DNA of 64,000 nucleotides from Psychroserpens mesophilus (GTDB lineage Bacteria; Bacteroidota; Bacteroidia; Flavobacteriales; Flavobacteriaceae). The first letter of the stretch is position 1. Every line of letters starts with the position of its first letter. Location: NCBI RefSeq assembly GCF_000826645.1, contig NZ_JXJP01000014.1:62001-126000 (forward strand). The letters run 5' to 3'. Below are positions 27,248-56,311 of this stretch, one piece after another. The notes beneath the pieces are model-generated. The model was not told the origin of the DNA, did not search any database, and saw only the letters and a program-made list of their open reading frames with translations. Made by a program: the position numbers and the translations under genes.

Positions 27248-29686
27248 ATGAAAAAAATTACATTATTAGCACTTCTTGTAATGTCTTATAGCTCTATGGC
27301 TCAGGTATTAAATGAATCTGCTAACTGGCCAAATGCCAATTGGACCATCACTGGTACTTACGATGCAAATCCGGTCATTTTTACTGACAATCCTACCGTT
27401 AGTTCCAATTTTTCGTACGATGATGATGAGGCTGGATCAGCTTCAGTAAACAACGTAGCTGCCGAATCTAATACAATCAATTTAACTGCAGCACATTCAG
27501 CTGGAGAAACTTTAATTAAAGTTTCCAGCACTTACGTTTTAAACATTTACCAAGATGAAGAATTGAGAATACAGTATTGGGATAATGATGCTGGAAACTG
27601 GCAAGATTTTGGACCTGTATTAGCACAAACAAACAATGCACCTAATGTAAATTTTTGTACTGGTACTCCTCAACAAATAATTCAAACATTAAATATTACT
27701 TCGTTTACACCGTCGCAATTGGCTAATTTTAAGTATCGTATTTTTTATGATGATAACGGATCTTATGGTTGGGGATTTTGTTTTAATTCACCTACACTAA
27801 GCTCTGAAATTCCTCCTGCTTGTCCAAACATCACAGACTTATCAGTGACATACGTTACTCTAGATGGCGCCAATGTTTTCTGGGAAGTTGGCGATGTCGA
27901 AACGTCTTGGGAAATTGCGGTTCAAACTCCTGGATCTGGAATTCCTTCTGGGTCTGGAACATCGACAAGCTCAAACAATCCTCATGTTTTGAGTGGATTA
28001 AATGCAAATACATCATATGAAATTTATGTAAGAGGATTTTGTGGTGGAACTGATTTTAGTAATTGGGTTGGACCTGTAAACTTTACAACCTTAATTCCTG
28101 CAAGAGTTAATTTTACTCGCCAAACAATGAATATTGGCAATTACGATTTAACCGTTGTAGATATGAATGGCGATTATCTTGATGATATTGTCTCAGTGTC
28201 AACTAATAATGTTAACATACATTACCAATTGAATTCTGGAGGTTTCAATGAAGTAAATATTACTACATCTAATGCAGATTATTTACCTAGTTGGAGTATG
28301 GCAGCTGCAGATTTTGATAAAAATGGATATACTGATCTATTATACGGAAGTGGAAATGGCGTAACTTTTATGAAAGCTAACAATACAGGGACTGGTTTTA
28401 CGGAAATTTCTGGCTCTGATTATGTATTTTCACAACGCTCAAATTTCGCAGATATCAACAAAGATGGTCACTTAGATGCTTTTGTATGTCATGACGTAGA
28501 ACCAAATGTTTACTACATTAATGATGGATCTGGTAATTTCACTTTTTATCAGTCAGGTATCACTCCTGGTGCTCCTTTTAATTTAGGAGATTACCCTTCT
28601 GGTGGTGATTATGGCTCTATTTGGATTGACTACGATAATGATCGAGATTTAGATATGTTTATTGCCAAATGTGGTGGTGAAGTAGCAAGAAGAACCAACG
28701 TAATGCTTACATACGATAGTAATACAGGTACATATACCGAAAATGCGGCAAGTTTAGGTCTTAATGATCCTATGCAAACTTGGTCTTCTACTTGGGGAGA
28801 TTATGATAACGATGGCGATATGGATGTTTTTGTAGGAGCAAGCTCTGGCTCACATAAACTTATGCGAAATAATGGTGATGGTTCGTTTACAGATGTCACT
28901 TCTGGTGCAGGTGTAAGTAGTCCTCCTAACGGTCACGAAAGTGTGAGTTATGATATTGATAATGATGGTTATTTAGATATTTTATGTAATGGAATGATTA
29001 TGTATGGAAAAGGAGATCTTACTTTCGAAGATGCCGACAGTAATCAAATTGACTATAAAAATGGGTCTTTAGGTGATTTAAATAACGACGGATTCATAGA
29101 CGCTTACTATAATGGTGAGATATATTGGAACCTTACAACACCTAATAATTGGATTAAAATTAATACTGTTGGTACGACTAGTAATATCAATGGTATCGGA
29201 GCGCGTGTTGAAATCTATACAGACAGCGGAGTACAAATTAGAGATGTAAGAAGTGGCGAAGGTTTTGAATATATGAGTTCATTAAACACACATTTTGGTA
29301 TTGGAACTGATACAAATATCTCTCATATTATTGTGTATTGGCCAAATTCTGATTGTGAAATGTTTTTAAACCCTGCAATTAATCAAGCGTTCACTGCTGT
29401 TGAAGGCTCTGGTGATTCTTGTGACACACTTGGGGTTGATGATGAATCCATCACTTCTGATTTCATTTTATCTCCAAACCCAACTAAAAATGTATTAAAT
29501 ATCACTACTGAATTGCAACTCGAAAATGCAATCTATAATATTTACGATATCAGTGGAAGACGTGTGATGACAAATTCAATAAACAACACTAAAACAATTG
29601 ACGTATCTCAATTAACGGCAGGAAACTACATTATTAGTATTGTTTCAAATAACACGATTAGAAACCAAAAGTTTATTAAGCAATAA
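27248..29686 (+). CDS. Secreted FG-GAP/ASPIC-UnbV protein with FN3 and T9SS type A tail (paralogue 2)
   Basis: An 812-aa secreted protein. A signal peptide (1-18, ...SMAQ) precedes a beta-sandwich of about 170 residues (EELRIQYWDNDAGNWQDFG; YRIFYDDNGSYGWGFCF), a fibronectin type III-like domain (about 190-280; NANTSYEIYVRGFCGG), a seven-bladed FG-GAP propeller, an ASPIC/UnbV domain and a T9SS type A tail (LSPNPTKNVLNIT...QKFIKQ). It carries an insertion of about nine residues (GITPGAPFN) in the propeller that paralogues 1 and 3 lack. It has its own terminator, so the three genes can be expressed separately. Confidence 0.9.
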   Translation: MKKITLLALLVMSYSSMAQVLNESANWPNANWTITGTYDANPVIFTDNPTVSSNFSYDDDEAGSASVNNVAAESNTINLTAAHSAGETLIKVSSTYVLNIYQDEELRIQYWDNDAGNWQDFGPVLAQTNNAPNVNFCTGTPQQIIQTLNITSFTPSQLANFKYRIFYDDNGSYGWGFCFNSPTLSSEIPPACPNITDLSVTYVTLDGANVFWEVGDVETSWEIAVQTPGSGIPSGSGTSTSSNNPHVLSGLNANTSYEIYVRGFCGGTDFSNWVGPVNFTTLIPARVNFTRQTMNIGNYDLTVVDMNGDYLDDIVSVSTNNVNIHYQLNSGGFNEVNITTSNADYLPSWSMAAADFDKNGYTDLLYGSGNGVTFMKANNTGTGFTEISGSDYVFSQRSNFADINKDGHLDAFVCHDVEPNVYYINDGSGNFTFYQSGITPGAPFNLGDYPSGGDYGSIWIDYDNDRDLDMFIAKCGGEVARRTNVMLTYDSNTGTYTENAASLGLNDPMQTWSSTWGDYDNDGDMDVFVGASSGSHKLMRNNGDGSFTDVTSGAGVSSPPNGHESVSYDIDNDGYLDILCNGMIMYGKGDLTFEDADSNQIDYKNGSLGDLNNDGFIDAYYNGEIYWNLTTPNNWIKINTVGTTSNINGIGARVEIYTDSGVQIRDVRSGEGFEYMSSLNTHFGIGTDTNISHIIVYWPNSDCEMFLNPAINQAFTAVEGSGDSCDTLGVDDESITSDFILSPNPTKNVLNITTELQLENAIYNIYDISGRRVMTNSINNTKTIDVSQLTAGNYIISIVSNNTIRNQKFIKQ

Positions 29687-29710
29687 TTTTCTTAACTATT
29701 TTACATAAAA

Positions 29711-29743
29711 AAGCCACTACATCAAATGTAGTGGCTTTTTTTT
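29711..29743 (+). terminator. Perfect hairpin terminator after FG-GAP paralogue 2
   Basis: AAGCCACTACAT and ATGTAGTGGCTT form a 12-bp perfect stem with a CAA loop and a run of eight T. Confidence 0.92.
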
Positions 29744-29745
29744 AT

Positions 29746-29753
29746 TACTTTTA
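29746..29753 (+). promoter_or_regulatory. Candidate -7 box of FG-GAP paralogue 3
   Basis: TACTTTTA directly after the terminator, in the same TTATTACTTTTA context as at 27205-27216. Confidence 0.4.
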
Positions 29754-29782
29754 GAAAATATTTATTTAATATCTAATTAATT

Positions 29783-32200
29783 ATGAAAAAAATTACATTA
29801 ATAGCATTTCTTGTAATGACTTATTGCTCATTTGCCCAGGTCTTAAATCAGCCTGCTAACTGGCCAAATGACAATTGGACAATTACTGGGTCTTATGATG
29901 CTAATCCTCTCTACTTTACTGATAATCCAACTGATGGCTCATCAAGTTTTTCTTACGATGAAGATGAAGCCGGGCCAAATTCAATTAATAATATAGCTAT
30001 AGAGTCTAACCTTATTGATTTAACTGCAGCACATGCGGCAGGAGAAACATGGATTTCGGTAATTAGTTCTTATGTCTTAAATATTTTTCAAAATGAAGAA
30101 TTAAGAATTCAATATTGGGATAATGATGCTGGAAATTGGCAAAATTTCGGTTCAGAATTACCTCAAACTAATGGTGCACCAACATCAAATTTTTGTAATG
30201 CCGTTGCTGAACCAGTAAATGAAACGTTAAGTATTGCAACATTTACTTCTTCTCAATTATCTAATTTTAAATACAGAATTCTATACGACGATAATGGATC
30301 TTATGGTTGGGGGGTGTGTTTTAATTCCCCTACATTACGTTCTGAAACTCCTCCTGCTTGTCCAAATATCAGTGATCTATATGCTGCTTTTATTTCTGAA
30401 AATGGAGCATATATTTATTGGGATGCTGGTGATATAGAAACGTCATGGGAAATCGCATTACAGAGTCCAGGAACTGGAATCCCTTCTGGCTCTGGCATAT
30501 CAACTACTACAAATAATCCTCATGTTTTAAACGGATTGACCGAAAACACTTCATATGAAGTTTATGTGAGAGGCTATTGTGGTGGTACAGATTATAGTAA
30601 TTGGATAGGTCCTGTTAATTTTACAACGTTAATTCCTTCCCGTGTTAATTTCTCTCTTCAATCAATGGGTATTGGAGGTTATGACTTAACTGTTGTTGAT
30701 ATGGATGGTGACCACTTGGATGATATTGTTTCAGTATCTTCTAGTAACGTAAACATACATTATCAATTGAGTACAGGTGGTTTTAATGAAGTCAATATCG
30801 CAACACCAAACGCAGATTTTTTACCAGGATGGAGTATGGCAGCTGCAGATTTTAACAAAGATGGTTTTACAGATCTACTATATGGGTCTGGTAGTGGTGT
30901 CACTTTTATGAAAAGTGATGGCACTGGAACTGGTTTTACAGAAATCTCAGGTCCTGAATATGTATTCTCACAACGTTCAAACTTCGTTGATATTAATCAG
31001 GATGGTCATTTAGATGCGTTTGTTTGTCATGATGTTGCTCCAAACGTATATTATATAAATGATGGTAGTGGCAACCTTACATTTTACCAAGGTGGCTTAG
31101 GTGATTATTCTTCAGGTGGTAATTACGGATCAATATGGATTGACTATGATAATGATAGAGATATGGACATGTTTATTGCCAAATGTGGTGGTGAAACTGC
31201 TAGACGAACCAATCAAATGTTAACCAATAATGGCAATGGTACTTTTACAGAAAACGCTCTTGATTTAGGTCTTGCTGATCCAATGCAAACATGGTCATCT
31301 TCTTGGGCCGATTATGATAACGATGGAGATATGGATGTTTTTGTAGGTGCAAGTTCTGGTGCACATAAACTTATGAGAAATAATGGCGATGGTACTTTTA
31401 CAGATGTTACTTCTGGTGCTGGCGTAAGTGGTGCTCCAAATGGTCATGAAAACGTAAGTTATGATATAGATAACGATGGTTATTTAGATATTTTGTGCAA
31501 TGGTATGATTATGTATGGTGTTGGCGATCTTACTTTTGAAGATGCCGATGACACTCAAATCAGTTATGCTAATGGAGCATTTGGTGATTTGAATAATGAC
31601 GGTTTTATTGATGCGTTCTCAAATGGTAATATTTACTGGAATCTTACAACTAACAATAATTGGATTAAAATAAACACCGTAGGTACAGCAAGTAATATTG
31701 ATGGTATTGGAGCTCGTGTAGAAATCTATACAGACAGTGGTGTTCAAATTAGAGATGTTCGTAGTGGAGAAGGTTTTAAGTACATGAGTACGCTTAATAC
31801 GCATTTTGGTATTGGTACTGATACCGCAGTTAATCATGTGATCGTCTATTGGCCAAATTCACCTTGTGAAGTGTTTTTAAACCCTGGGATTAATCAAGTA
31901 TTTACTGCTGTTGAAGGCTCTGGCGATTCTTCATGTGATGCACTTGGAATTGATGACGAGATGCTTGCATCTGATTTCATTTTATCACCAAATCCAACTA
32001 AAAACGTACTAAATATTTCTACTGGACTCTCTTTAGAAAATGCATTCTACAATATTTATGATATTAGTGGAAGACGTGTTATGGCAAATTCGCTTAACAA
32101 TGCTAAATCTATTGATGTATCCCAATTGACAGCTGGAAACTATATTATTAGTATTGTCTCTGATAATACCATAAAAAACCAAAAATTTATTAAGCAATAG
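29783..32200 (+). CDS. Secreted FG-GAP/ASPIC-UnbV protein with FN3 and T9SS type A tail (paralogue 3)
   Basis: An 805-aa paralogue of the preceding gene with the same order: signal peptide (1-18, ...SFAQ), beta-sandwich, FN3-like domain (ENTSYEVYVRGYCGG), seven FG-GAP blades, ASPIC/UnbV (GIGARVEIYTDSGVQ; IRDVRSGEGFKYMS) and T9SS type A tail. The N-terminal half and the C-terminus follow paralogue 2. The middle blades (DINQDGHLDAFVCHDVAPNV; YQGGLGDYSSGGNYGSIW) follow paralogue 1, including the missing nine-residue insertion. This mosaic points to recombination between the copies. Confidence 0.9.
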   Translation: MKKITLIAFLVMTYCSFAQVLNQPANWPNDNWTITGSYDANPLYFTDNPTDGSSSFSYDEDEAGPNSINNIAIESNLIDLTAAHAAGETWISVISSYVLNIFQNEELRIQYWDNDAGNWQNFGSELPQTNGAPTSNFCNAVAEPVNETLSIATFTSSQLSNFKYRILYDDNGSYGWGVCFNSPTLRSETPPACPNISDLYAAFISENGAYIYWDAGDIETSWEIALQSPGTGIPSGSGISTTTNNPHVLNGLTENTSYEVYVRGYCGGTDYSNWIGPVNFTTLIPSRVNFSLQSMGIGGYDLTVVDMDGDHLDDIVSVSSSNVNIHYQLSTGGFNEVNIATPNADFLPGWSMAAADFNKDGFTDLLYGSGSGVTFMKSDGTGTGFTEISGPEYVFSQRSNFVDINQDGHLDAFVCHDVAPNVYYINDGSGNLTFYQGGLGDYSSGGNYGSIWIDYDNDRDMDMFIAKCGGETARRTNQMLTNNGNGTFTENALDLGLADPMQTWSSSWADYDNDGDMDVFVGASSGAHKLMRNNGDGTFTDVTSGAGVSGAPNGHENVSYDIDNDGYLDILCNGMIMYGVGDLTFEDADDTQISYANGAFGDLNNDGFIDAFSNGNIYWNLTTNNNWIKINTVGTASNIDGIGARVEIYTDSGVQIRDVRSGEGFKYMSTLNTHFGIGTDTAVNHVIVYWPNSPCEVFLNPGINQVFTAVEGSGDSSCDALGIDDEMLASDFILSPNPTKNVLNISTGLSLENAFYNIYDISGRRVMANSLNNAKSIDVSQLTAGNYIISIVSDNTIKNQKFIKQ

Positions 32201-32273: not shown

Positions 32274-33185
32274 ATGCTTCAAGTTAAAAACCTCACTTTT
32301 AGTTATAAAAAAATAAAAATATTAGACCAGATTAACTTCTCAGTAAATCCTGGTGAACACCTTTCTATAATTGGCGAAAGTGGCTCAGGGAAAACAACAT
32401 TACTAAAATTACTTTATGGTGAATTTGACTTAAATGAAGGAGAGATTTATTGGAAAAACCAACAAATTTTAGGTCCAAAATACAACCTTGTAATTGGCTA
32501 TGACTTTATGAAACATGTAGCTCAGGAATTTGATTTAATGCCTTACATAAGTGTTGAAGAAAATATAGGCAAATACCTATCAAACTTCTTTCCTGAGGAA
32601 AAACAAAAACGAACATTTGAATTACTAGAAGTTGTTGAACTCAATGCGTTAGCTCACGTCAAAGTAAAAACCCTTAGTGGTGGACAAAAACAACGTGTAG
32701 CCCTTGCTCGTGCCTTGGCAAAAGAACCTGAAATATTACTTTTGGATGAACCCTTTAGCCATATTGATAATTTTAAAAAACAATCGCTCAGAAGACGTGT
32801 TTTTAAATATCTAAAAGATAATAAAATCACTTGTATTGTTGCCACTCATGATAAAACTGATGTTTTAGGGTTTGCAGACAGAATGATTCTTTTAAACAAT
32901 GCTGAAATTGAAGCATACGACACTCCTGAGCATTTGTTTAAGCATCCTAAATCGCCACTAGTTGCTTCGTTTTTTGGTGAGTTCAATGTTATTAATAACA
33001 ACATTATCTACGCACATCAATTGAAAGTCGTTGACAAATCCAATATGAAAGTCAAGGTCATTAAAAGCTATTTTAAAGGAACCTACTACTTAATTGAATC
33101 AAAATGTGAAGATGACCTCGTATTTTTTGAATCTTCTGAAATACTTCCAGAGGGACACACCGTATTTTTAATAATTAACACATAG
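32274..33185 (+). CDS. ABC transporter ATP-binding protein
   Basis: A 303-aa ABC ATPase with a complete nucleotide-binding domain: Walker A GESGSGKTT, Q-loop region, signature LSGGQKQRVALARAL, Walker B ILLLDEPFSHID and the switch His in VATHDKTD. The C-terminal about 70 residues (after HPKSPLVASFFGEFNVI) are a TOBE-like extension, as in importer ATPases of the Fe/spermidine/sulfate type. No permease or binding-protein gene is nearby, so its partner is unknown. Its 3' end overlaps the convergent PPTase gene by 11 nt. Confidence 0.88.
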   Translation: MLQVKNLTFSYKKIKILDQINFSVNPGEHLSIIGESGSGKTTLLKLLYGEFDLNEGEIYWKNQQILGPKYNLVIGYDFMKHVAQEFDLMPYISVEENIGKYLSNFFPEEKQKRTFELLEVVELNALAHVKVKTLSGGQKQRVALARALAKEPEILLLDEPFSHIDNFKKQSLRRRVFKYLKDNKITCIVATHDKTDVLGFADRMILLNNAEIEAYDTPEHLFKHPKSPLVASFFGEFNVINNNIIYAHQLKVVDKSNMKVKVIKSYFKGTYYLIESKCEDDLVFFESSEILPEGHTVFLIINT

Positions 33186-33741
33186 CAAAAGCACCAAATT
33201 CACCATGATGCGAAATCGATAATGCCTCCATGATTTGTTGCCCATTATAAAATACGTTTGGAACTCCAATTGCGGATTTCTTTATTTCAATCGCACTTAG
33301 TTCTTTTCCTTTGTTCAGAGAGATCTGATTTACGATTTTACCCCTTAGCATTTGGCTTTGATCGGTTTCAGGCAGTTTAAAAAAATGAATTTCAGGACAT
33401 TTAAAACCTGTTTTCATTGCTATGCTGTGTATATATTTTGAGGTAATTATGGATTTTGAATGATATCTTTTTTCATCAATACAAACAACTCCTTCGTTGT
33501 TTAAACCTAATTGGCATTGCATTCGTTTCGGATTCAAAAAAGGGAGTTTTGTTTCTCTAATATGCGCTTTATAGGCAGCCTCTTTCATGGTCCAAAGCAA
33601 CCAAACCATTTGGTTCTGATTTTCCGAAGAATGAATAATACATTGTTCTTTTTGTGTGAATACTTTATCTAGAAACCGAAATCGTTTCCAATTAGAATCT
33701 TTTGCGGCTTGTTGTAAATCAACAATGTCGTTCCCAATCAT
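33175..33741 (-). CDS. 4'-phosphopantetheinyl transferase superfamily protein
   Basis: A 188-aa PPTase that transfers phosphopantetheine from CoA to carrier proteins. The family motifs are MIGNDIVDL at the N-terminus (Mg-binding Asp) and W-T-M-K-E-A-A-Y-K in the middle. It follows the acyl carrier protein gene with a 4-nt ATGA-type overlap. This strongly suggests that it activates that ACP, the last step needed to run the cluster. The C-terminal third (LSISHHGEFGAFA) is typical of the fold. Confidence 0.88.
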   Translation of the reverse strand: MIGNDIVDLQQAAKDSNWKRFRFLDKVFTQKEQCIIHSSENQNQMVWLLWTMKEAAYKAHIRETKLPFLNPKRMQCQLGLNNEGVVCIDEKRYHSKSIITSKYIHSIAMKTGFKCPEIHFFKLPETDQSQMLRGKIVNQISLNKGKELSAIEIKKSAIGVPNVFYNGQQIMEALSISHHGEFGAFAMC

Positions 33742-33992
33742 TTTTCAGCTAATTTCTCATTAACAATATCCATAGCTGCTTTTACAGAAGTCATTTTTTC
33801 CATATCATCATTTTCAATTCTAATATCAAATTCATCCTCAACATCTAGAATAACATCTACTAAATTAGCTGAATTAATCTTTAAGTCGTTTATAAAATCT
33901 GTGTCTTCAGATAAGTTTTCAAAGGCTTGTTCATCTTGAATATAAGGTTGAACAATAGTTTTTAGTTTGGCAATAAGTTCCTCTTTGGTCAT
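33738..33992 (-). CDS. Acyl carrier protein (cluster-dedicated)
   Basis: An 84-aa four-helix acyl carrier protein. The phosphopantetheine attachment site is Ser41 in DLKINSANLVDV; the usual DSL is NSA here, so it differs from the housekeeping AcpP. The acidic recognition helix II (VILDVEDEFDI) is intact. It sits 3 nt behind the ketosynthase gene and overlaps the PPTase gene by 4 nt. The most likely role is to carry the acyl chain built by the KS, dehydratase and reductase of this cluster. Confidence 0.9.
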   Translation of the reverse strand: MTKEELIAKLKTIVQPYIQDEQAFENLSEDTDFINDLKINSANLVDVILDVEDEFDIRIENDDMEKMTSVKAAMDIVNEKLAEK

Positions 33993-33995
33993 AGC

Positions 33996-35267
33996 TTAAA
34001 TATATCTTTTAAAGATAACACATGCATTAACATCACCAAAACCAAAACTTGCTTTTGCCGCAATATTCAATTCGGTATGTAATACTTCTTTTACAATTTT
34101 TTCTTCGGAAATCATTTCGGAAATTTCATCATGTAAGTCCTCACAATTAATATTAGGAAATATAAATTGTTCTTTCAATTGAAGCACAGTGGCTACGCTT
34201 TCAATACTTCCTGATGCTGCTAAACAATGTCCTACCATCGATTTTAAGGAATTAATATATGGGAAATTTTCACCTTTTCTGTTTAAGGCTTTGGTCCAGT
34301 TTTCTATTTCAAGACTGTCTTTTGATGTTGCAGTTAAGTGACCATTAATTGCATCAATATCATTTGTAGAAATATTAGAATTTGAAACGGCTTGAATAAT
34401 GCAACGTTGCACAGCGTCTGAATTTGGAGCTGTCATTGTTCCACCTTCTCGTTGTCCTCCAGAATTAATATGTCCTCCTAAAACCTCGGCATAAATCGCC
34501 GCATTTCGGTTTAGAGCACTCTCTAAAGATTCTAATACTAAAGCACCTGATCCTGAACCTGGTACAAATCCTGATGCTGTTGCACTCATAGGTCTTGAGC
34601 CTTGTTCTGGTGAATTATTGTGCTTATACGTCATCACTCGCATAGCATCAAATCCTCCCCAAATATATGGACCATCATCACTACAACTACCAACCAGCAT
34701 GCGTTTGGCTTGACCGCTTTTAATACGTTCGTAACCCATTAAAATAGCTTCAGTTCCTGTGGTACAGGCTGAAGAATTCGTCGTTACTTGATTGCCTAAG
34801 CCTAGAATTCCACCTAAAAATGCGCTTATTCCGCTGGCCATAGTTTGCACAACAACTGTACTTCCTAAGCGTTTGACGTCACCTTCATCCAATTTATAAA
34901 TAGCTTCTCTAAATTTTTCAACACCAGAAGTTCCACTTCCAAAAACTGTTCCGCTGTCAAAATCCAGTTCGCTATTTGGGTCAACCGTAAATCCTGCATC
35001 TTTCCAAGCGTCAATTCCTGCCATACAACCATATAAAATTCCGGAGCTATTAAAACCTCTAAGCTGTAAAGGTGTTAAATAGTTTAGTTTTTGTTCTTCT
35101 GAAATTTTTGGGATTCCACCAATACAACACGAAAATTTTAAATCTGCTAATTGTTGATGAAACGTAATTCCTGAATCTCCTTTTTTTATAGCTTCTGAAA
35201 ACGCATCGATTCCAACTCCGTTTGGTGCAACAACTCCTAATCCCGTAATGACTACTCTGTTTTTCAT
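33996..35267 (-). CDS. Beta-ketoacyl-ACP synthase (FabF-like, cluster ketosynthase)
   Basis: A 423-aa condensing enzyme of the FabB/FabF fold. The catalytic triad is complete: Cys168 (TTNSSACTTGTEAI), His310 (INGHLTATSKDS) and His347 (SMVGHCLAASG), with Lys342. The loop after the first His is diverged from E. coli FabF (TSTPxGD). It overlaps the dehydratase gene by 4 nt and lies 3 nt before the ACP gene. I infer that it elongates an acyl-ACP for the type III PKS of the cluster; it could also be a chain-length-specialised KS of a separate lipid. Confidence 0.9.
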   Translation of the reverse strand: MKNRVVITGLGVVAPNGVGIDAFSEAIKKGDSGITFHQQLADLKFSCCIGGIPKISEEQKLNYLTPLQLRGFNSSGILYGCMAGIDAWKDAGFTVDPNSELDFDSGTVFGSGTSGVEKFREAIYKLDEGDVKRLGSTVVVQTMASGISAFLGGILGLGNQVTTNSSACTTGTEAILMGYERIKSGQAKRMLVGSCSDDGPYIWGGFDAMRVMTYKHNNSPEQGSRPMSATASGFVPGSGSGALVLESLESALNRNAAIYAEVLGGHINSGGQREGGTMTAPNSDAVQRCIIQAVSNSNISTNDIDAINGHLTATSKDSLEIENWTKALNRKGENFPYINSLKSMVGHCLAASGSIESVATVLQLKEQFIFPNINCEDLHDEISEMISEEKIVKEVLHTELNIAAKASFGFGDVNACVIFKRYI

Positions 35268-35701
35268 GCTTTGATCATTCCTGAAATTTGTCCTCTACAT
35301 ACCAATTCATTCTTCTCATTAAACATCTTAACCTTACATTTTAGCTTATTAAAACGAAACACCTCTTTCTCTGAAACCACAGTAACCTTTTCTTTTGGTA
35401 ATACTGGCAAAAAGAAATCTATCTGACTAGATGTTAAAGCAATCTGTGGATGACTACTTTCAGAAATTTCATCTTTCATGATAATTATTCCCAAACAAAC
35501 TAAACCAATTTGTGCCATACATTCTGTAAGAATAACACCTGGTGTCATTGGATGATTTTTAAAATGACCTTCATAAAAAAAGGCGTCTTTTTTAAAAGTA
35601 TAGTTACCTGTTATACGTTCTGAAGATATTTCAGTCAACTCATCAACAAACAAAAAAGGCTCCTGATACGGTAATAATGCTATGATTTGGTTTGATGTCA
35701 T
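35264..35701 (-). CDS. FabZ-like 3-hydroxyacyl-ACP dehydratase
   Basis: A 145-aa single hot-dog protein. The FabZ hallmarks are visible: LLPYQEPFLFVDEL, the catalytic His in YEGHFKNHPMTPGV and the catalytic acid in LTECMAQIG. This gives water elimination from 3-hydroxyacyl-ACP. It overlaps the ketosynthase gene by 4 nt and is 3 nt from the reductase gene. No ketoreductase (FabG type) is obvious in the cluster, so the 3-hydroxy substrate would have to come from housekeeping FabG. Confidence 0.87.
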   Translation of the reverse strand: MTSNQIIALLPYQEPFLFVDELTEISSERITGNYTFKKDAFFYEGHFKNHPMTPGVILTECMAQIGLVCLGIIIMKDEISESSHPQIALTSSQIDFFLPVLPKEKVTVVSEKEVFRFNKLKCKVKMFNEKNELVCRGQISGMIKA

Positions 35702-35704
35702 ATA

Positions 35705-36499
35705 TTAACTTATGTGTTCGCCTCCATCAACAGGAATGACGCAACCATTAATCCAAGAGGCTTCGTCTTTTGATAATAAATAAACGGCATTTGCAACATC
35801 TTCAGGTTGTGTTAATTTTTTAAATGGGTTCCGTTTCAAGCTATGTTCTTTTATTTGATCACTTCCTGGAATCATGCGAAGAGAAGCTGTATCTGTTACT
35901 CCTGCTTGTATACAATTGGCTCTAATTCCAAATGGTGCAAACTCCAAGGCTATATTTCTTGTTATCGCTTCTAAGGTTACTTTAGCCGCAGAAACAGCCG
36001 CATAATTCTTCCAAGCTTTTGTGTTCCCTTCACTAGTAAAACTTATGATTCTTGCATCTTTCGCGAATAGCTGAGCTTCAAATATGGCTTGGGTCCAATC
36101 ATACAAACTAATAGCCATAGCGTTGATGGTTAAGTTGAAATCATCATTTTTTAAAGTTGGTGAGTCATCAGAAATCATAGGTTTAAGATTGCCTTTTGCA
36201 ACACTATGCACTAAAGTTCTCATTTTTCCTTTTGAACCAAGCAACGTTTTCAATTCAGATACAATGAGTTCTCGCTTTTCAGATTTAAAGGCGTCTACAT
36301 TAAACGATTTGAATTGTATGTTTTCGGCTCTAATTTTATCAAATTCAGAATTTATCTCATCGTCTTGAGATCTAGAATTTCTATGGATAATACAGATATT
36401 CATGCCGTGTTTTGCAAGTTTTTTTGCCGTTGCTAAACCCAATCCGCTTGAGCCACCCAATATGAGTGCCCAATAATTTTTATCTTGAAATTCTCTCAT
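35705..36499 (-). CDS. SDR-family enoyl-ACP reductase-like protein (FabL/FabI-like)
   Basis: A 264-aa short-chain dehydrogenase with a nucleotide motif of the form GGSSGLG (residues 15-21). The active-site pair is Tyr166 and Lys173, i.e. Y-x6-K (NYAAVSAAKVTLEA). This spacing is found in enoyl-ACP reductases FabI/FabL, whereas ketoreductases have Y-x3-K. The sequence around it resembles FabL (KVTLEAITRNIALEFAPFGI). The second FabI Tyr is replaced by Ser. I therefore favour enoyl reduction of the acyl chain, with ketoreduction as the alternative. It is 60 nt from the type III PKS gene, a gap occupied by a repeat. Confidence 0.8.
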   Translation of the reverse strand: MREFQDKNYWALILGGSSGLGLATAKKLAKHGMNICIIHRNSRSQDDEINSEFDKIRAENIQFKSFNVDAFKSEKRELIVSELKTLLGSKGKMRTLVHSVAKGNLKPMISDDSPTLKNDDFNLTINAMAISLYDWTQAIFEAQLFAKDARIISFTSEGNTKAWKNYAAVSAAKVTLEAITRNIALEFAPFGIRANCIQAGVTDTASLRMIPGSDQIKEHSLKRNPFKKLTQPEDVANAVYLLSKDEASWINGCVIPVDGGEHIS

Positions 36500-36517
36500 T
36501 TTTACTATTTAAATGAA

Positions 36518-36544
36518 GATGCTTCGACTGCGCTCTGCATGACA
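36518..36544. repeat. Interspersed palindromic repeat (copy 4), inside the PKS cluster
   Basis: GATGCTTCGACTGCGCTCTG plus CATGACA fills the only sizeable gap between the type III PKS and reductase genes. It is the same element as copies 2 and 3, and would be transcribed with the operon. Confidence 0.65.
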
Positions 36545-36559
36545 TGTTAATGTTACTTA

Positions 36560-37612
36560 TTACCATTCTAATAATATGCGTTGTGCCGAAAAGCCTGGTC
36601 CAAAACTTAGCATTAGACCTTTATCACCTTTCGGAAGTTGTTTATCCATAAAGCGTTCTAAAACATACAATACTGTTGCACTACTCATGTTGCCATATAA
36701 TTTTAGAACCTCTTTTGTATCCTCTATATTCTTTCCTAAAGAGCCGAATAAATCTTCAACGGTTTGCACGATTTTCTTTCCGCCTGGATGAAAAATAAGA
36801 TGATCTATTGCTTCAATGGTGATATGATTTCGTTCCAAAAACGGATGAACAATCTTTGGAAAGTGTTCTGAAATCGTCTCAGGAACAGCTTTGTCCAGAA
36901 TCATTTGCAACCCTGTATTTACCAGTTTAAATCCCATCATGGTTTCAGCATCATAAAAATGATACATGGCTTCATCAAGTATTTTCGGACCTTCTTCATT
37001 TTCATAAGATGATAAAATAACGCTAGCTGCGCCATCTCCAAAAATCGCTGCACTTACAATATTGACCATTGAAAAATCATCCAGTTGAAAGGTTGCCGTT
37101 GGTGATTCTACTGCTATAACTGCAGCACGTTTATTAGGATTTGCTTTTAAAAAATTCTTTGCATAGATAATCCCTGAAACGCCAGCGGCACAACCCATTT
37201 CGGTCACAGGAAGACGAACAATATCCTGCTTCATCTTCAGATTGTTAATCAAGTACGCATCCATTGACGGAATCATAATTCCGGTGCAACTCACAGTAAT
37301 AATATAATCAATATCAGTTGGTTTTAAGCTGGCTTTATCTAGAGCTTTAACCAGTGATTGTTCAGCTAATTTCACAACTTCCCGAGCGTAGATATCGTTT
37401 TTTTCTTCAAACGAGGTCTTGTTAAAAACTTCTTCAGCATCCATAATCGAATAACGTTTATCGACTCCTGCGTTTTCAAAAAGCTTAATCACTTTACGTT
37501 GAAACCGTTCTTCTTGACCAGACATCCATATTTTCAAATAGGGAATGATATCCTTGGTTTCTCTAGTATATTTAGGCAACTGCTTAGCTACTGATGTGAT
37601 TTTTACACTCAT
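36560..37612 (-). CDS. Type III polyketide synthase (chalcone-synthase family)
   Basis: A 350-aa homodimeric-type condensing enzyme that extends an acyl starter with malonyl-CoA and cyclises it. The triad is intact: Cys141 (EMGCAAGVSG), His275 (LIFHPGGKK) and Asn308 (LYGNMSSATV); the C-terminal GPGFSAQ loop is also kept. The start at 37612 was chosen over one 16 codons upstream. It overlaps the methyltransferase stop as ATGA and gives the usual N-terminus. The cluster suggests a long acyl starter and an alkylresorcinol or alkylpyrone product, as for the Streptomyces srsA and Bacillus bpsA enzymes. Confidence 0.93.
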   Translation of the reverse strand: MSVKITSVAKQLPKYTRETKDIIPYLKIWMSGQEERFQRKVIKLFENAGVDKRYSIMDAEEVFNKTSFEEKNDIYAREVVKLAEQSLVKALDKASLKPTDIDYIITVSCTGIMIPSMDAYLINNLKMKQDIVRLPVTEMGCAAGVSGIIYAKNFLKANPNKRAAVIAVESPTATFQLDDFSMVNIVSAAIFGDGAASVILSSYENEEGPKILDEAMYHFYDAETMMGFKLVNTGLQMILDKAVPETISEHFPKIVHPFLERNHITIEAIDHLIFHPGGKKIVQTVEDLFGSLGKNIEDTKEVLKLYGNMSSATVLYVLERFMDKQLPKGDKGLMLSFGPGFSAQRILLEW

Positions 37613-38328
37613 ATTTTTTTCTGCTTCAAAATCCATTGAAAACGAAAAGCCCACTTCCATTGAATTTGATAATTTGTGTTTAATTGTTGAGAAATATTCT
37701 CTAATTCTTCTCGTTTAAATCCTCGTAATACTGATGTTAATCCGTCTTCAATAATTGTTTTGTTTGTAATCGTTACACAAAGCAACTTAAACAAATAGTA
37801 TGCGATTTTATGTCTGTGTAAATCATTGACTACAATTCCCAATCTGGCCTTTTCTAATACAAGTTTTAAAAACGATATCAACGCTTCATTTTTAAAATGA
37901 TGCAAGAACAAGGTAGATAACACTAAATCGTAGTGTAACGACTTAAATTCCTCTGAAAACACATCAATGGCTTTAAATTTTATGTTGTCATACGACTCAG
38001 ATAAACTCTGAGCATATTCGATTGTATGCTGATTGGCATCGATTCCAACTAAATGAAATTGATATCCATTATTCTTCCCAAAACGAGATACTTCTCTTAA
38101 TATATCTCCTCCTCCACAGCCTAAATCGATGATGGTTAAGGGTTCACTTTTGGGATGATTTTTAAGCGTTTTTTTGAGTCCGTTAATCGTGACTTTATTT
38201 CCGCCTAACCACTGATTTATTTTTGCAAGCTTGTCAAGCGCATCATGAAGTATTGGACCATTATAATCCAGATCGTCCATAATTTCCTCTGCTTCACTTC
38301 TATATGTCGTACTAATCAACCAACTCAT
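37609..38328 (-). CDS. SAM-dependent methyltransferase of the PKS cluster
   Basis: A 239-aa class I methyltransferase. The SAM-binding motif I is TIIDLGCGGGDILREV (about residues 66-81), followed by GIDANQHTIEYAQ (motif post-I) and LVLSTLFLHHF (motif II). It resembles UbiE/class I enzymes that act on small aromatic or lipid substrates. It overlaps its neighbours by 4 nt on both sides (FAD enzyme before, PKS after), so the three are translated together. I infer O- or C-methylation of the phenolic ring. Confidence 0.88.
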   Translation of the reverse strand: MSWLISTTYRSEAEEIMDDLDYNGPILHDALDKLAKINQWLGGNKVTINGLKKTLKNHPKSEPLTIIDLGCGGGDILREVSRFGKNNGYQFHLVGIDANQHTIEYAQSLSESYDNIKFKAIDVFSEEFKSLHYDLVLSTLFLHHFKNEALISFLKLVLEKARLGIVVNDLHRHKIAYYLFKLLCVTITNKTIIEDGLTSVLRGFKREELENISQQLNTNYQIQWKWAFRFQWILKQKKI

Positions 38329-39461
38329 TCTATTGACATTACTTTACCATGGGTTCGTCTTATGATGAATGGTAAAACCGACGGAAACCATTTTAAACCT
38401 CGCATCAACACTTCTGATAATCTGGGTTGATTAAACAAATTTGCAACAATATGCCCTGTTTTTAAACGTGATTTAAAGGCAGAATTCCATTCTCTAAGAT
38501 ACTGCTTTTCTAAGGCTTCTCTATCGGAAGTTTCCGAATTAAAATATTTAATAATTAATCTTGATGCTATTTGAGCACTACAAATGGCCATACTCATACC
38601 GTTACCACAAAGTGGATGAATTAGAGCAGCTGTATCACCACACATGATGATGTGGTTTTCTACTGGTTTTTTTGCATCAAATGAAATTTGACTTATCGTT
38701 AATGGCTCTTCAAATACCGGAACTGTGTTACTTAAAATGTCTTTGAGAAAGTTATTTTTATATACCACATTTTTCTGAAAGTCTTGAATGTCCTTAAACT
38801 TTTTAAACACATTAAAATTGGTGATATAACACAAATTAATGTTGTCATTTTCTACTTTAGACACACCACAATAACCACCTTCAAAATTATGAAGTGCTAC
38901 GACATCATCTGCAAAATCTCCTTTTACATGCATTTTTACTGCTAGATAAGGCGATTTTCGCTTTATAAACTGACGATTGAGTTTGATGTCTAGGTTAGAA
39001 CGCTTTCCATAGGCTCCAATCACTATTTTAGCTTTGAACTTGTTCGATTTTTTAGTTTCTACTAAAAATTCATCATTTGAAAATTGAATGTCTTCCACTG
39101 AATCCTCAAGAATTTCTGAACCGACTTCGAGTGCTTTCTTAGCTAATGCATGATCTAAACAAAATCGGCTAATTCCGAAACCACCTAAAGGTAATGTTGT
39201 ATATAACAGCTTGCTTTGGGTTGTTGATAATTGAAATCTTTCAATTTTTTTGGCTCCCAATGAAAAGACATCAATATCAAGAAATTTGAGGTATGGTAAA
39301 ACTTCATTAGAGATGTATTCACCACAAACTTTATGTTTTGGGTAGCTATTTTTTTCAATCACGAGTACGCTCAAGTTTGACTTTGACAGATGAATGGCAC
39401 TGGATAGACCTGCTAATCCTCCTCCAATTATGAGCACGTCAAACTTAAGTTCTTCCTTCAA
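38325..39461 (-). CDS. FAD-dependent oxidoreductase (geranylgeranyl-reductase/PHBH-like) of the PKS cluster
   Basis: A 378-aa flavoprotein of the PHBH/geranylgeranyl reductase fold. It has the FAD dinucleotide motif VLIIGGGLAGLSSAIHLSKS at the N-terminus, a KVCGEYIS segment typical of GGR-like enzymes and the second FAD motif CGDTAALIHPLCGNGM. Such enzymes hydroxylate aromatic rings or reduce polyprenyl double bonds. Beside a methyltransferase and a type III PKS, ring hydroxylation (as by srsC in Streptomyces griseus) is the most attractive reading, but double-bond reduction remains possible. Confidence 0.87.
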   Translation of the reverse strand: MKEELKFDVLIIGGGLAGLSSAIHLSKSNLSVLVIEKNSYPKHKVCGEYISNEVLPYLKFLDIDVFSLGAKKIERFQLSTTQSKLLYTTLPLGGFGISRFCLDHALAKKALEVGSEILEDSVEDIQFSNDEFLVETKKSNKFKAKIVIGAYGKRSNLDIKLNRQFIKRKSPYLAVKMHVKGDFADDVVALHNFEGGYCGVSKVENDNINLCYITNFNVFKKFKDIQDFQKNVVYKNNFLKDILSNTVPVFEEPLTISQISFDAKKPVENHIIMCGDTAALIHPLCGNGMSMAICSAQIASRLIIKYFNSETSDREALEKQYLREWNSAFKSRLKTGHIVANLFNQPRLSEVLMRGLKWFPSVLPFIIRRTHGKVMSIE

Positions 39462-39462
39462 T

Positions 39463-39999
39463 TCACACGGTTTTTAAATTATATTCCACTCTAATTTTTA
39501 CAGTATTAGATAGTATTAAACTGCTGCCACCAACATCAAAATCTTTTCTATTAATTTCAAAATAACTATAAAATTCTTCTGTCCCTTTAGTCTTGACAAT
39601 TCTAACTGGAATTTTCAAGGTTCTGGTAATGTTTTTAATCGTAAGCTCAACTTCTACTGAGTAAAGATTATCTGCAATTTTTTTAAATGTCTTCGTTTGC
39701 AGCGATAGCATTGGGTGGTTTTCAGCATCAAAAAAATCTTCTTTTAGCAAATGCTCATCGCGTTTTTTATGGTCTGTATTTATAGTACTAACTTCAACAT
39801 GACCTTTAAGTTTCCATTGCGAAATAGTTTCACTTGAAAAATCTGTTTCGATATAGGATTTTGAAAACCTACCATCAACATTAAATCCGATATTTTTAAT
39901 TTTAAAGGTAATATCTGCGTCAGTAATAACATTTTGAGAGTACGCAAGCAAAGCCATTAAAAGACCCACAATGAGGAGTAAAGTCGTTTTCTTTTTCAT
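39463..39999 (-). CDS. YceI family periplasmic protein
   Basis: A 178-aa exported YceI-like lipocalin-fold protein. The signal peptide is residues 1-21 (LLLIVGLLMALLAYSQ). The mature part has the family's beta-barrel pattern (ADITFKIKNIGFNVDGRFS; KKRDEHLLKEDFFDAENHP; VELTIKNITRTLKIPVRI). YceI proteins bind polyisoprenoid or other amphiphilic lipids in the periplasm. It ends 1 nt before the FAD enzyme gene, so a role in carrying the lipid product or a quinone-like precursor is plausible. Confidence 0.87.
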   Translation of the reverse strand: MKKKTTLLLIVGLLMALLAYSQNVITDADITFKIKNIGFNVDGRFSKSYIETDFSSETISQWKLKGHVEVSTINTDHKKRDEHLLKEDFFDAENHPMLSLQTKTFKKIADNLYSVEVELTIKNITRTLKIPVRIVKTKGTEEFYSYFEINRKDFDVGGSSLILSNTVKIRVEYNLKTV

Positions 40000-42372: not shown

Positions 42373-42428
42373 GTGATTTTTGGTTTGCGTAGCTCTAAAT
42401 TTGAAACTACATTTCGGTTAGAACTTCT

Positions 42429-42523
42429 GTTAAGGATAGAAGCGATATCCTTTTTTATTGTTATAGATAATTCGACTGCGCTTAATATGACAATAAAAAA
42501 GATTTAGCGGATAGCCTGACCCT
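42429..42523. repeat. Composite interspersed repeat, copy A
   Basis: GTTAAGGATAGAAGCGATAT then CCTTTTTTATTG at the left and CAATAAAAAAGATTTAGCGG then ATAGCCTGACCC at the right form long imperfect inverted arms. Between them is a TTCGACTGCGC...TGACA element (42471-42492). The same outer arms occur at 56211-56284. The remainder of the 410-bp gap holds only the VNTR, a second small hairpin (42590-42610) and the accC terminator; I see no gene. Confidence 0.75.
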
Positions 42524-42589
42524 TTGGAGTTTTTACGGAAAAGGGTAACAGCCAAAACATTAACCTTCGTTGAGTGTTTGATTTATGAG

Positions 42590-42708: not shown

Positions 42709-44061
42709 TTAGTCTTCGTTTTCTGGTTTGATTTTAAAATCTTCCATAAACTTCGTGGTATAATTCCCAGCCAGATAATCTGGATGTTCCATCAATTGTC
42801 TGTGAAAAGGAATGGTTGTTTTAATCCCTTCAATCACGAATTCGTCTAAAGCACGTTTCATTTTGTTGATTGCCTCCTCACGTGTTTGCGCAGTGGTAAT
42901 CAGCTTTGCAATCATAGAATCGTAGTTTGGCGGAATCACATAACCAGCGTAAACATGCGTGTCTAAACGTACACCATGACCACCTGGAGCATGTAATGTT
43001 GTGATGCGCCCTGGCGAAGGTCTAAAGTCGTTAAACGGATCTTCTGCATTGATACGACACTCAATTGAATGTAAGTTAGGCGTGTAGTTTTTACCAGAAA
43101 TTGGCACACCTGCAGCAACTAAAATTTGTTCACGTATTAAATCAAAATCAATGACCTGCTCAGTGATTGGGTGCTCCACCTGAATACGCGTATTCATTTC
43201 CATGAAGTAGAAGTTACGGTGTTTATCTACTAAAAATTCAACCGTTCCCGCACCTTCATATTTAATGTATTCTGCGGCTTTTACGGCTGCATCACCCATT
43301 TTTTTACGTAAGGCTGTGGTCATGAAAGGTGAAGGCACTTCTTCGGTTAATTTTTGGTGACGGCGTTGTATTGAACAGTCACGTTCAGACAGATGACAAG
43401 CTCTTCCAGTAGAATCTCCAACGATCTGGATTTCAATATGACGTGGTTCTTCGATGAGTTTTTCCATGTACATATCGTCGTTACCGAATGCCGCTTTAGA
43501 TTCTGTACGAGCAGACTCCCAAGCCGCTTGTAAATCTTCTGGTTTCCATACGGCACGCATACCTTTTCCACCACCACCAGCAGATGCTTTCAGCATGACT
43601 GGATAACCGGTTTCTTTGGCCAATTTTTTACACTCTTCAAAATCTTCAATGATACCTTCACTACCTGGAACACAAGGCACTCCGGCTGCCAGCATTGTGG
43701 CTTTAGCATTTGCCTTATCTCCCATTCTGTCGATCATCTCTGGAGATGCGCCTATAAATTTGATATCGTGTTCTTCACAGATTTTTGAAAACTTAGCGTT
43801 TTCTGATAGGAATCCGTAACCTGGATGAATGGCATCTGCATTTGTAATTTCTGCAGCTGCGATGATATTTGGTATTTTTAGATATGATTCACTACTTGAA
43901 GGTGGTCCGATACAAACGGCTTCGTCTGCAAATTTCACATGTAAACTTTCGGCATCAGCTGTAGAATAAACTGCAACTGTTTTAATGCCCATTTCTTTAC
44001 AGGTCCTGATAACACGTAATGCTATCTCACCTCTGTTGGCTACTAATATTTTTTTGAACAT
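42709..44061 (-). CDS. accC: Biotin carboxylase subunit of acetyl-CoA carboxylase
   Basis: ATP-grasp biotin carboxylase (450 aa) that carboxylates biotin on AccB, the first step to malonyl-CoA. Visible motifs: [19 protein letters not shown] at the N-terminus, ATP-binding [12 protein letters not shown], the active-site [14 protein letters not shown] and the catalytic KLITTA region. Full length. It follows accB by 82 nt. Malonyl-CoA made here feeds fatty-acid synthesis and, by inference, the type III PKS encoded next door. Confidence 0.95.
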
Positions 44062-44143
44062 AACTTGTATTTTAAAAATTCAATTTCCAAGCACCAAATT
44101 CCAAGAATTGGTTTTGGGATTTGCAGATTGGAATTTTCAATTG

Positions 44144-44629
44144 TTATGATGGATCAACTAAGAATAGTGGTTGATCAAATTCTACTGGAGATGAATCGTC
44201 AACTAAAACCTTGACTATTTTTCCAGACACTTCAGATTCTATTTCATTAAATAGTTTCATGGCTTCAATAACACAAAGTACGTCACCTTCTCCAATAGTA
44301 GATCCAACCTCAACAAACATAGGTTTATCTGGCGATGGCTTACGGTAGAACGTACCGATTATTGGTGATTTAATCGTAATATATTTTGAATCTTCTGCTA
44401 TAGCAGGAGCCGAAGGTGTTGCTTCAGCGGCTGGAGCTGCAGGTGTCGCTGGCATAGCTTGAGCTACTGGCTGATTCATTGGAATTTGCTGAACATAGGT
44501 AGTTGATTCCCCTTTGTCATCAGCACCAGTTTTTATGGTGATTTTAATATCATCCATTTCTAGTTTAACCTCACTTGCACCTGACTTGGCTACAAATTTG
44601 ATTAAGTTCTGAATTTCCTTAATATCCAT
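44144..44629 (-). CDS. accB: Biotin carboxyl carrier protein of acetyl-CoA carboxylase
   Basis: AccB (161 aa). An N-terminal helix ([17 protein letters not shown]) is followed by an Ala/Pro-rich linker (residues about 55-80) and a C-terminal biotinyl domain with the biotinylated Lys in [14 protein letters not shown]. It carries carboxybiotin between AccC and the carboxyltransferase; accA and accD are not in the window. It lies 34 nt behind fabH. Confidence 0.95.
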
Positions 44630-44663
44630 AATTATTTAGTCTTTTAATTAGTTAGTTTAAACG

Positions 44664-45659
44664 TTAGGAATTATAAGCCCATTTCAAATAAATGGAGCCC
44701 CAAGTAAATCCGCCTCCAAACGCTGCGAATATAATTTTATCACCTTTTTTTAATTGTGATTCGTAATCGTGTAATAGTAATGGTAATGTGGCTGAGGTCG
44801 TGTTTCCATACTTATGTATGTTCATCATGACCTTAGCTGGATCTAAAGCTATTCTGTTGGCAGTTGCTTCTATAATACGCTTGTTAGCCTGGTGAGCAGC
44901 TAACCATGAAATATCTTCGTTTGTTAAATTATTTCGTTCTAAAATACGCTCTGTGACGTCAGCCATATTAAAAACGGCATTTTTAAATACTGTTTTTCCT
45001 TCTTGAAACACATAGTGTTTTCCTTCATTAAATGTATCTGCAGTAATTGGATATGAGGATCCACCATAGGTGGCTTGCAAAAATTCTCGCCCTTCACCAT
45101 TACTTCTCAATAATTCGTCTTGTAAACCTAAGCCTTCATGATTGGGTTCAAACAAAACAGCTCCTGCACCATCTCCAAAAATGATACATGTAGCTCTGTC
45201 TTTATAGTTTATAAATGACGAATTTTTATCTGCTCCAATAAGCAATACATTTTTATATTTACCAGATTCAATATAACTTGAAGCGACAGACATTCCGAAG
45301 AGAAAGCTCGAACAAGCAGCTTCTAAATCGAATGAAAACGCATTTGTTGCACCTATGTTAGTTGCTGTAAAAGCTGCGGTTGATGCAGCTTTCATATCTG
45401 GAGTTGCGGTTGCAACAATGACTAATTCTATATCTTTGGGGTCAATTCCTTTTTTATTAATAAGGTCTTTAGCGGCATTTATAGCAAGGAAAGATGTGCC
45501 TTTCCCTTCTTCCTTTAAAATTCTGCGTTCCTTAATTCCTGTACGGGTGGTAATCCATTCATCATTTGTATCGACCATAGTTTCCAAAATTTGGTTGGTC
45601 AATCTATATTCAGGTAAATAAGCTCCTACACCAGTAATTGCAGCTGTTATTTTACTCAT
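44664..45659 (-). CDS. fabH: 3-oxoacyl-ACP synthase III
   Basis: FabH (331 aa) condenses acetyl-CoA (or a branched acyl-CoA) with malonyl-ACP to start fatty-acid synthesis. Catalytic triad: Cys in DLEAACSSFLFGM, His in SWLAAHQANKRII and Asn in HKYGNTTSATLPL. The N-terminal ITGVGAYLPEYRLTN is typical. It begins the fabH-accB-accC operon, with a terminator of rpmF lying upstream in the 180-bp gap. Confidence 0.95.
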   Translation of the reverse strand: MSKITAAITGVGAYLPEYRLTNQILETMVDTNDEWITTRTGIKERRILKEEGKGTSFLAINAAKDLINKKGIDPKDIELVIVATATPDMKAASTAAFTATNIGATNAFSFDLEAACSSFLFGMSVASSYIESGKYKNVLLIGADKNSSFINYKDRATCIIFGDGAGAVLFEPNHEGLGLQDELLRSNGEGREFLQATYGGSSYPITADTFNEGKHYVFQEGKTVFKNAVFNMADVTERILERNNLTNEDISWLAAHQANKRIIEATANRIALDPAKVMMNIHKYGNTTSATLPLLLHDYESQLKKGDKIIFAAFGGGFTWGSIYLKWAYNS

Positions 45660-56201: not shown

Positions 56202-56210
56202 CTAAAAAGT

Positions 56211-56284
56211 CGCGTTAAGGATAGCAGTGGAAATCCTTTTTTTGCTGCCATATATGGCAAAAAAAGATTGTAACGGATAGCCTG
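56211..56284. repeat. Composite interspersed repeat, copy B, inside the efflux operon
   Basis: CGCGTTAAGGATAGCAGTGG then AAATCCTTTTTTTG, a GCCATATATGGC centre and CAAAAAAAGATT then GTAACGGATAGCCTG. The outer arms match copy A at 42429-42523, but the centre is a simple palindrome instead of the TTCGACTGCGC element. It fills the 110-nt gap between adaptor and permease genes. Confidence 0.75.
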
Positions 56285-56311
56285 TTAAAACGCCCAAAAT
56301 AAAAGTATAAA

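Follow-up and report, generated by a model that had tools for sequence, protein, structure and literature searches.

A type III polyketide synthase locus of Psychroserpens mesophilus with a co-inherited set of acyl-chain genes, a candidate phenolic-lipid pathway of Flavobacteriaceae

In Azotobacter, the arsABCD operon joins type III polyketide synthases (T3PKSs) and a dedicated fatty acyl supply, a type I fatty acid synthase (FAS), in one operon. The flexirubins and dialkylresorcinols are phenolic lipids of Flavobacteriaceae made with type II-like chain enzymes, and their ring is made by DarB. Here, we analyzed a T3PKS gene cluster of Psychroserpens mesophilus (Flavobacteriaceae), found in 64,000 nucleotides (nt) of contig NZ_JXJP01000014.1 (assembly GCF_000826645.1, positions 62,001 to 126,000), a stretch called the window, whose numbering is used throughout. 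The cluster combines a T3PKS, a methyltransferase (MT), and a flavin adenine dinucleotide (FAD) enzyme with discrete acyl-chain genes. Similar trios are described from several bacteria. Among 96 planctomycetal T3PKS genes, 58 sit in an MT-FAD oxidoreductase-T3PKS trio, and T3PKSs of such operons gave pentadecyl- and heptadecylresorcinols in Corynebacterium glutamicum (PMC10896814). The operon of “Saltatorellus ferox” has two MT genes and genes for a lipoprotein and a lipid/isoprenoid-binding protein; no oxidoreductase is named (PMC10896814). The cyanobacterial hidABC genes of the hierridins form a trio of the same kind (PMC8086630). The actinobacterial pkq and srs trios make alkylquinones with a methylated and oxidized ring, and a role as alternate electron carrier has been reported for the product of pkq (PMC9927152). 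In the cylindrocyclophane cluster (CylB/D/H/I), the T3PKS CylI, which uses acyl starters, receives its acyl chain from a free acyl carrier protein (ACP) and the synthases upstream of it in the pathway (PMC8086630). An Azotobacter strain without the ars operon and other genes made no alkylresorcinol (PMC12358690).

The window cluster resembles hidABC and the Planctomycetota operons in that the T3PKS is flanked by a single MT gene and a single FAD oxidoreductase gene in its vicinity, and its YceI gene recalls the lipid/isoprenoid-binding gene of “Saltatorellus ferox.” It differs by its gene order (FAD-MT-T3PKS) and by a dedicated ketosynthase (KS), dehydratase (DH), enoyl reductase (ER), ACP, and 4'-phosphopantetheinyl transferase (PPTase), none of which is mentioned for those operons in the excerpts. 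The likeness to pkqABC and srsABC is one of gene content (T3PKS, MT, and oxidoreductase or hydroxylase); these have three genes, and the excerpts mention no acyl machinery of their own. Whereas arsABCD relies on a type I FAS, the window cluster has discrete type II enzymes and no such large protein. Its T3PKS would, like CylI, be fed from an ACP, and CylI is among its nearest folds, but the type I polyketide synthases, the halogenase CylC, and the alkylating CylK of the cylindrocyclophane cluster are absent from the nine genes of the window cluster. In the open-access literature, as far as the excerpts go, no type II KS/DH/ER/ACP set is described beside a T3PKS-MT-FAD trio. The original prediction, made from the letters of the window alone, drew a parallel with srs, and trio operons of this kind do make alkylresorcinols or alkylquinones (PMC10896814, PMC9927152, PMC8086630). 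Its candidate new pathway is supported only in part: the trio is a known module and not a new pathway type. What appears to be new is the dedicated, co-inherited, discrete acyl-chain set beside it.

We propose, with a probability of roughly 0.6, that the genes of the locus act as a single unit in the biosynthesis of a phenolic lipid of the membrane, a ring-methylated and probably ring-oxidized alkylresorcinol or quinone whose tail comes from a dedicated ACP. Its nine open reading frames (ORFs) lie on the minus strand (33175 to 39999) in the order YceI, FAD enzyme, MT, T3PKS, short-chain dehydrogenase/reductase (SDR; FabL-like), FabZ-like DH, FabF-like KS, ACP, and PPTase. All nine proteins exceeded the Pfam gathering score for their named families (YceI, FAD [DAO, FAD_binding_3], Methyltransf_31/25, Chal_sti_synt N and C, adh_short_C2, FabA-like, ketoacyl synthase N and C, PP-binding, and ACPS), which confirms the predicted place and order of the eight enzymatic genes and of YceI. 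The tight spacing was also predicted correctly, although for five junctions (1 to 4 nt or ATGA), while we found gaps of at most 4 nt (+3 to −4) at seven of the eight: +1 (YceI/FAD), −4 (FAD/MT), −4 (MT/PKS), +3 (SDR/DH), −4 (DH/KS), +3 (KS/ACP), and −4 nt (ACP/PPTase). Since the catalytic residues are intact in every aligned copy, the enzymes look functional: this concerns the Cys-His-Asn of T3PKSs (49/49, the distant one of locus L082 among them), the Tyr-x6-Lys of SDRs (43/43), the His/Glu of DHs (45/45), the Cys-His-His of KSs (45/45), and the attachment Ser of ACPs (45/45).

The strongest result is the near-perfect co-occurrence of KS and T3PKS. We searched 149 Flavobacteriaceae genomes from 148 genera for the T3PKS (E ≤ 1e−30) and, separately, a family sample of equal size, with the same genome handles where listed, for the KS alone (E ≤ 1e−60). 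The T3PKS matched in 49 genomes, and 48 of these, about a third of the sample and including the window's own, carry orthologs; the match in G072 (31% identity, no other cluster genes beside it) is a non-ortholog and was left out. The cluster KS was found in 47 genomes, that is, in 47 of the 48 with a T3PKS ortholog and in none of the 101 others (kinship uncorrected). The T3PKS genome without a KS at this threshold is G138. In G144, KS and T3PKS are on different contigs, far apart, yet the KS is present, and the KS/T3PKS split of G066 is just a contig end. The co-occurrence in Flavobacteriaceae that the original prediction named as a check is thus borne out, and in this sample it amounts to a testable rule: the KS exists only where the T3PKS exists.

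Synteny points in the same direction. In the 47 family loci besides the window, where only same-strand matches within about 6 to 7 kb were counted, the order FAD-MT-PKS-(SDR)-DH-KS-ACP was kept in most. FAD and MT were each present in 47 of 47, DH, KS, and ACP each in 44, and SDR in 42; some absences are contig ends (L035), and in some loci a further gene interrupts the block (L038, L042, and L078). Since KS and T3PKS co-occur and the order is conserved, the cluster genes form one co-inherited unit. The core is FAD, MT, T3PKS, DH, KS, and ACP, while the reductase, PPTase, and YceI are accessory. For the last two, we rejected a role as core parts because PPTase adjoins the cluster in just 14/47 loci and YceI lies upstream of FAD in just 4/47.

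The block extends beyond the family. In a class sample of 295 genomes, 16 matched at E ≤ 1e−140, and nine of the 16 belong to families other than Flavobacteriaceae, five in all; in a phylum sample of 296 genomes, 25 matched at E ≤ 1e−189 and the next at 2.3e−75, a gap filled in the class sample by four genomes of one family (1e−141 to 1e−144) in which the block is retained. The nine loci from the five other Bacteroidia families (L173 to L181) all encode FAD, MT, PKS, DH, and KS, with an SDR in its slot in seven and a detectable ACP in seven; the complete run of eight genes, FAD through PPTase, is found in L173, L174, and L176, and the PKS identity of L178 to L181 is just 52 to 54%. Carriers listed among the best 80 of 568 confirmed matches include Psychroserpens, Lacinutrix, Gelidibacter, Winogradskyella, Polaribacter, Tenacibaculum, Lutibacter, Flagellimonas, Brumimicrobium, Bizionia, and Altibacter. 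The loci of these 80 matches, those of the samples, and the window were pooled into a set of 139 loci, whose counts are rough since some genomes occur twice (e.g., as L105 and L038). Distances correlated with those of the PKS for KS (Spearman, 0.67), MT (0.63), FAD (0.56), DH (0.42), ACP (0.38), and SDR (0.35), values that are partly expected from kinship, with FAD rows partly truncated, and that we do not use as an argument. Among plasmid records, 15 matched the FAD enzyme and 232 the T3PKS; the trio was absent from the four plasmid neighborhoods examined (2/15 and 2/232, respectively), in one of which the T3PKS adjoins an isoprenylcysteine-type methyltransferase gene.

The sole long junction of the cluster, the +60 nt between T3PKS and SDR, contains a 26-nt sequence on the minus strand (36518..36543) that resembles a repetitive extragenic palindromic (REP) sequence; it has one copy in the window, while shuffles expect 0. 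A scan for sigma-70-type promoters gave matches no commoner than in shuffles. Two unrelated neighboring operons, the T3PKS trio and a KS-DH-ACP set, might meet at this gap. This is hardly credible given the distribution of the KS and the recurrence of the block in other families, and the T3PKS-SDR gap is at most 30 nt in 30 of 42 loci (with starts chosen by script).

The T3PKS (350 amino acids [aa]; 36560..37612, minus strand; PF00195 and PF02797) most likely starts not at 37660, as in the listed ORF, but at the ATG at 37612, where its start and the stop of MT share an ATGA. By sequence, its nearest solved relatives are, in order, Pks11, a Streptomyces tetrahydroxynaphthalene synthase (1u0m), and CylI. 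Its predicted model (mean predicted local distance difference test [pLDDT], 80.7) is closest to the folds of Pks11 (30% identity; template modeling [TM] score, 0.89) and then CylI (26%; TM, 0.86). As Pks11 is an alkylpyrone synthase, the same unit might close a lactone and produce a methylated alkylpyrone instead of a resorcinol or quinone. We consider this unlikely, since resorcinols or quinones are the known products of the T3PKS-MT-FAD trios that we found, the resorcinol former CylI is nearly as close in fold, and a FAD ring oxidase would be less needed on a pyrone. A marker of resorcinol- versus pyrone-forming T3PKSs is the residue at ArsB position 281, Trp in ArsB and Gly in ArsC (PMC9927152). 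The residue after the conserved Met-Gly is Phe in 46/46 cluster T3PKSs and Trp in Pks11, and its equivalence to ArsB 281 is a guess.

The best NCBIfam model for the T3PKS is DpgA (NF042429), an enzyme that works from malonyl alone. This match could suggest a reverse flow, in which an aromatic starter, built by the T3PKS from malonyl-CoA, is transferred to the ACP for extension by KS, DH, and ER; a KS-DH-ACP set without a fixed ER also resembles the logic of aryl polyenes. We find this quite improbable. The DpgA match (172.6 bits) falls far short of the cutoff (425), no CoA ligase or acyltransferase that could load an aromatic acid is found among the cluster ORFs, and Pks11 and CylI, the neighbors in the PDB, take acyl starters. 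The likeness to aryl polyenes, which lack an ER step, is weakened by the Tyr-x6-Lys reductase of most loci and may apply where the reductase is missing.

The reductase in question is the SDR (264 aa; 35705..36499, minus strand), whose best PDB match is the enoyl-ACP reductase 3oic. The Tyr-x6-Lys spacing is that of FabI/FabL enoyl reductases, while ketoreductases (KRs) have Tyr-x3-Lys. With 148.1 bits against the FabL model NF005975 (cutoff, 328), the SDR may work like FabL, yet is not classed as FabL. It is followed by the DH (145 aa; 35264..35701; PF07977, 51.6 bits) and the KS (423 aa; 33996..35267), both on the minus strand. The KS scores 255.9 bits against the FabF model TIGR03150 (cutoff, 493.75) and belongs to a separate, FabF-like subfamily. 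The ACP (84 aa; 33738..33992; PF00550, 24.3 bits) and the PPTase (188 aa; 33175..33741; PF01648, 54.9 bits) complete the set on the same strand. Elsewhere in the genome, we found one further strong ketosynthase and three weak partial matches (PF00109), and one further dehydratase (PF07977). Since PF01648 has just two matches in the genome, one being the cluster PPTase and the other lying in a 208-aa frame, the cluster enzyme could serve other carrier proteins too.

The remaining core enzymes are a class I S-adenosylmethionine methyltransferase (239 aa; 37609..38328, minus strand; PF13847, 50.7 bits) and the FAD enzyme (378 aa; 38325..39461, minus strand; TTG start), a probable ring oxygenase or oxidoreductase. 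Their NCBIfam matches are NF004851 for MT (137.8 bits; cutoff, 243) and TIGR02032 for FAD (114.7 bits; cutoff, 158.8). The nearest folds of the FAD enzyme, compared as a predicted model (pLDDT, 87.0), are flavin halogenases, UbiI, and 3-hydroxybenzoate 6-hydroxylase. Flavin halogenases are marked by a WxWxIP-type motif. This motif was found in 0/132 FAD ORFs of more than 330 aa, which argues against the halogenase hinted at by the fold neighbors, while the GD motif was present in 131/132.

In the proposed unit, for which the direction of flow, the type of ring, and the length of the tail are predictions, the ACP would be armed by the cluster PPTase or the other PPTase of the genome. The acyl chain would then be lengthened on the ACP by the KS, a shared FabG, the cluster DH, and the FabL-like ER, with a shared ER stepping in where the SDR is lost. 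The T3PKS would take the acyl group, add malonyl units, and close the ring, most likely as a 5-alkylresorcinol. MT might then methylate and FAD oxidize the ring, giving a methylated hydroxy-alkylresorcinol or an alkylquinone, and YceI may carry the product.

Several points weigh against this proposal. The cyclization may go either way, because the nearest structure belongs to the alkylpyrone maker Pks11. Both FAD and MT are below the cutoff of every NCBIfam model listed, and the fold neighbors of FAD are mostly halogenases, though the motif is missing. In Gimesia maris, adding MT and FAD led to just one methylation, probably on carbon, and no role was found for FAD (PMC10896814). According to the ORF list and Pfam, the cluster has no KR and no acyltransferase (including malonyl transferase), so the tail machinery is incomplete, and the missing KR and malonyl transferase functions would have to come from primary metabolism. 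The SDR is missing from its slot in about 25/139 loci; 24/139 have no SDR ORF (L149, one of these, has an SDR at a contig end), and in L165 and L175 the sole SDR is distant and lies on the opposite strand. The acyl machinery originally attributed to the cluster is thus real as a co-inherited KS/DH/ER/ACP set but not complete, and its reductase is dispensable. Finally, an SDR gene (59 to 68 bits against the cluster SDR model) lies beside the trio in two loci with another tail gene (L189 and L190, described below), making the contrast of tail genes incomplete. Overall, the observation of the original prediction is stronger than stated, and its interpretation is right in outline and too strong in details.

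Other T3PKS loci of Bacteroidota suggest how the labor is divided. We compared 30 non-ortholog loci (L082, L182 to L190, and L200 to L219, the last 20 picked from 96 weaker phylum matches). Homologs of MT and FAD (FAD, >200 bits) were found in 9/30, and seven of these nine also encode UbiA (L189, L190, L208, L209, L210, L216, and L219; confirmed by Pfam in L189 and by similarity to L189 in the other six). Two further loci have MT with FAD at just 29 to 33 bits, 19/30 have neither MT nor FAD nearby, and the cluster DH was found in 0/30. The ACP and KS of L189 and L190, farther from the trios, look like housekeeping genes, in L189 because an RNase III gene adjoins the KS. The T3PKS-MT-FAD-UbiA loci represent a possible prenylated phenol or quinone pathway, of which we found no report in the open-access literature searched. 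Such loci suggest an exchange of the tail source, with the ring tailoring left in place. As the same MT/FAD pair appears with two tail sources, MT and FAD probably act on a shared ring and not on the tail, and KS/DH/ER/ACP, like UbiA, would serve the lipid tail. A broader idea, which we think rather unlikely, is that Bacteroidota use a polyketide benzoquinone, made by the cluster and borne by YceI in the periplasm, for redox transport alongside menaquinone; one T3PKS-MT-FAD module would then be combined with either of two tail builders, type II KS/DH/ER/ACP (acyl) or UbiA (prenyl).

Unlike in flexirubin and dialkylresorcinol biosynthesis, where DarB forms the ring, DarB is absent from the window's genome: the DarB model NF053539 had no match at E ≤ 1e−60, so that the predicted absence of DarB holds genome-wide (the search covered DarB; darA was not searched). 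The T3PKS scored 29.3 bits against this model (cutoff, 550), and three FabH-like matches of the genome outside the window were far below the cutoff. We also considered the cluster as a substitute for flexirubin. Avoidance of DarB would then be expected, yet both co-occur in 13 of the 149 genomes, and the cluster was present in 13/24 genomes with DarB over the cutoff and in 35/125 others (Fisher test; P = 0.017; kinship uncorrected), so this idea was rejected.

T3PKS clusters made up 10.74% of the predicted gene clusters in a genome survey of Flavobacteriaceae (PMC10734526), and no product is named for them in the excerpts of the open-access literature. The block probably accounts for a large part of these clusters. 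If the proposed pathway is true, it offers a discrete, easily rebuilt system for studying chain transfer from an ACP to a type III PKS, as well as a candidate for an alternative quinone or a lipid of the envelope in bacteria common at sea.

The accessory YceI-family protein (178 aa; 39463..39999, minus strand; PF04264, 91.5 bits) is a possible lipid-, isoprenoid-, or quinone-binding partner. Its family occurs within the compared neighborhood in 50/139 loci, in three arrangements (same-strand upstream, 36 ORFs; opposite-strand downstream, 11; same-strand downstream, 5). An IS200-like transposase gene occupies the slot of the SDR or the gap between SDR and DH in 8/139 loci (L130, L137, L145, L146, L154, L042, L115, and L135; Pfam scan of one member), five of them without SDR, and presumably resembles a REP-associated tyrosine transposase (RAYT). 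Mobile elements may thus have removed the reductase gene.

In 20/139 loci, the cluster is directly followed downstream by a gene (at +4489 from the T3PKS start in L116) for a large membrane protein (about 750 aa), presumably an exporter of the resistance-nodulation-division (RND)/MMPL type and thus a candidate exporter of the product. In 18/139 loci (L074, L062, and L065 among them), a small membrane protein of about 145 aa is found directly downstream, with no Pfam match in the one member scanned. About 3 kb upstream of YceI, on the same strand (42709 to 45659), lie genes for FabH (a ketosynthase III-like match) and for a putative biotin carboxylase and biotin carboxyl carrier protein (BCCP). 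The latter two families recur in 29 and 25 of the 139 loci, respectively, no more than about 8 kb from the T3PKS, which may reflect malonyl-CoA supply or plain synteny. The Flavo-1 small RNA family matched at 42425 to 42525 (59.2 bits) and 56204 to 56291 (64.8 bits). On the other side of the cluster (27248 to 32200), a tandem pair of genes encodes highly similar, secreted-looking proteins of 812 and 805 aa. Both look like FG-GAP/VCBS-repeat proteins that carry a type IX secretion tail, and the pair is probably the result of a recent duplication.

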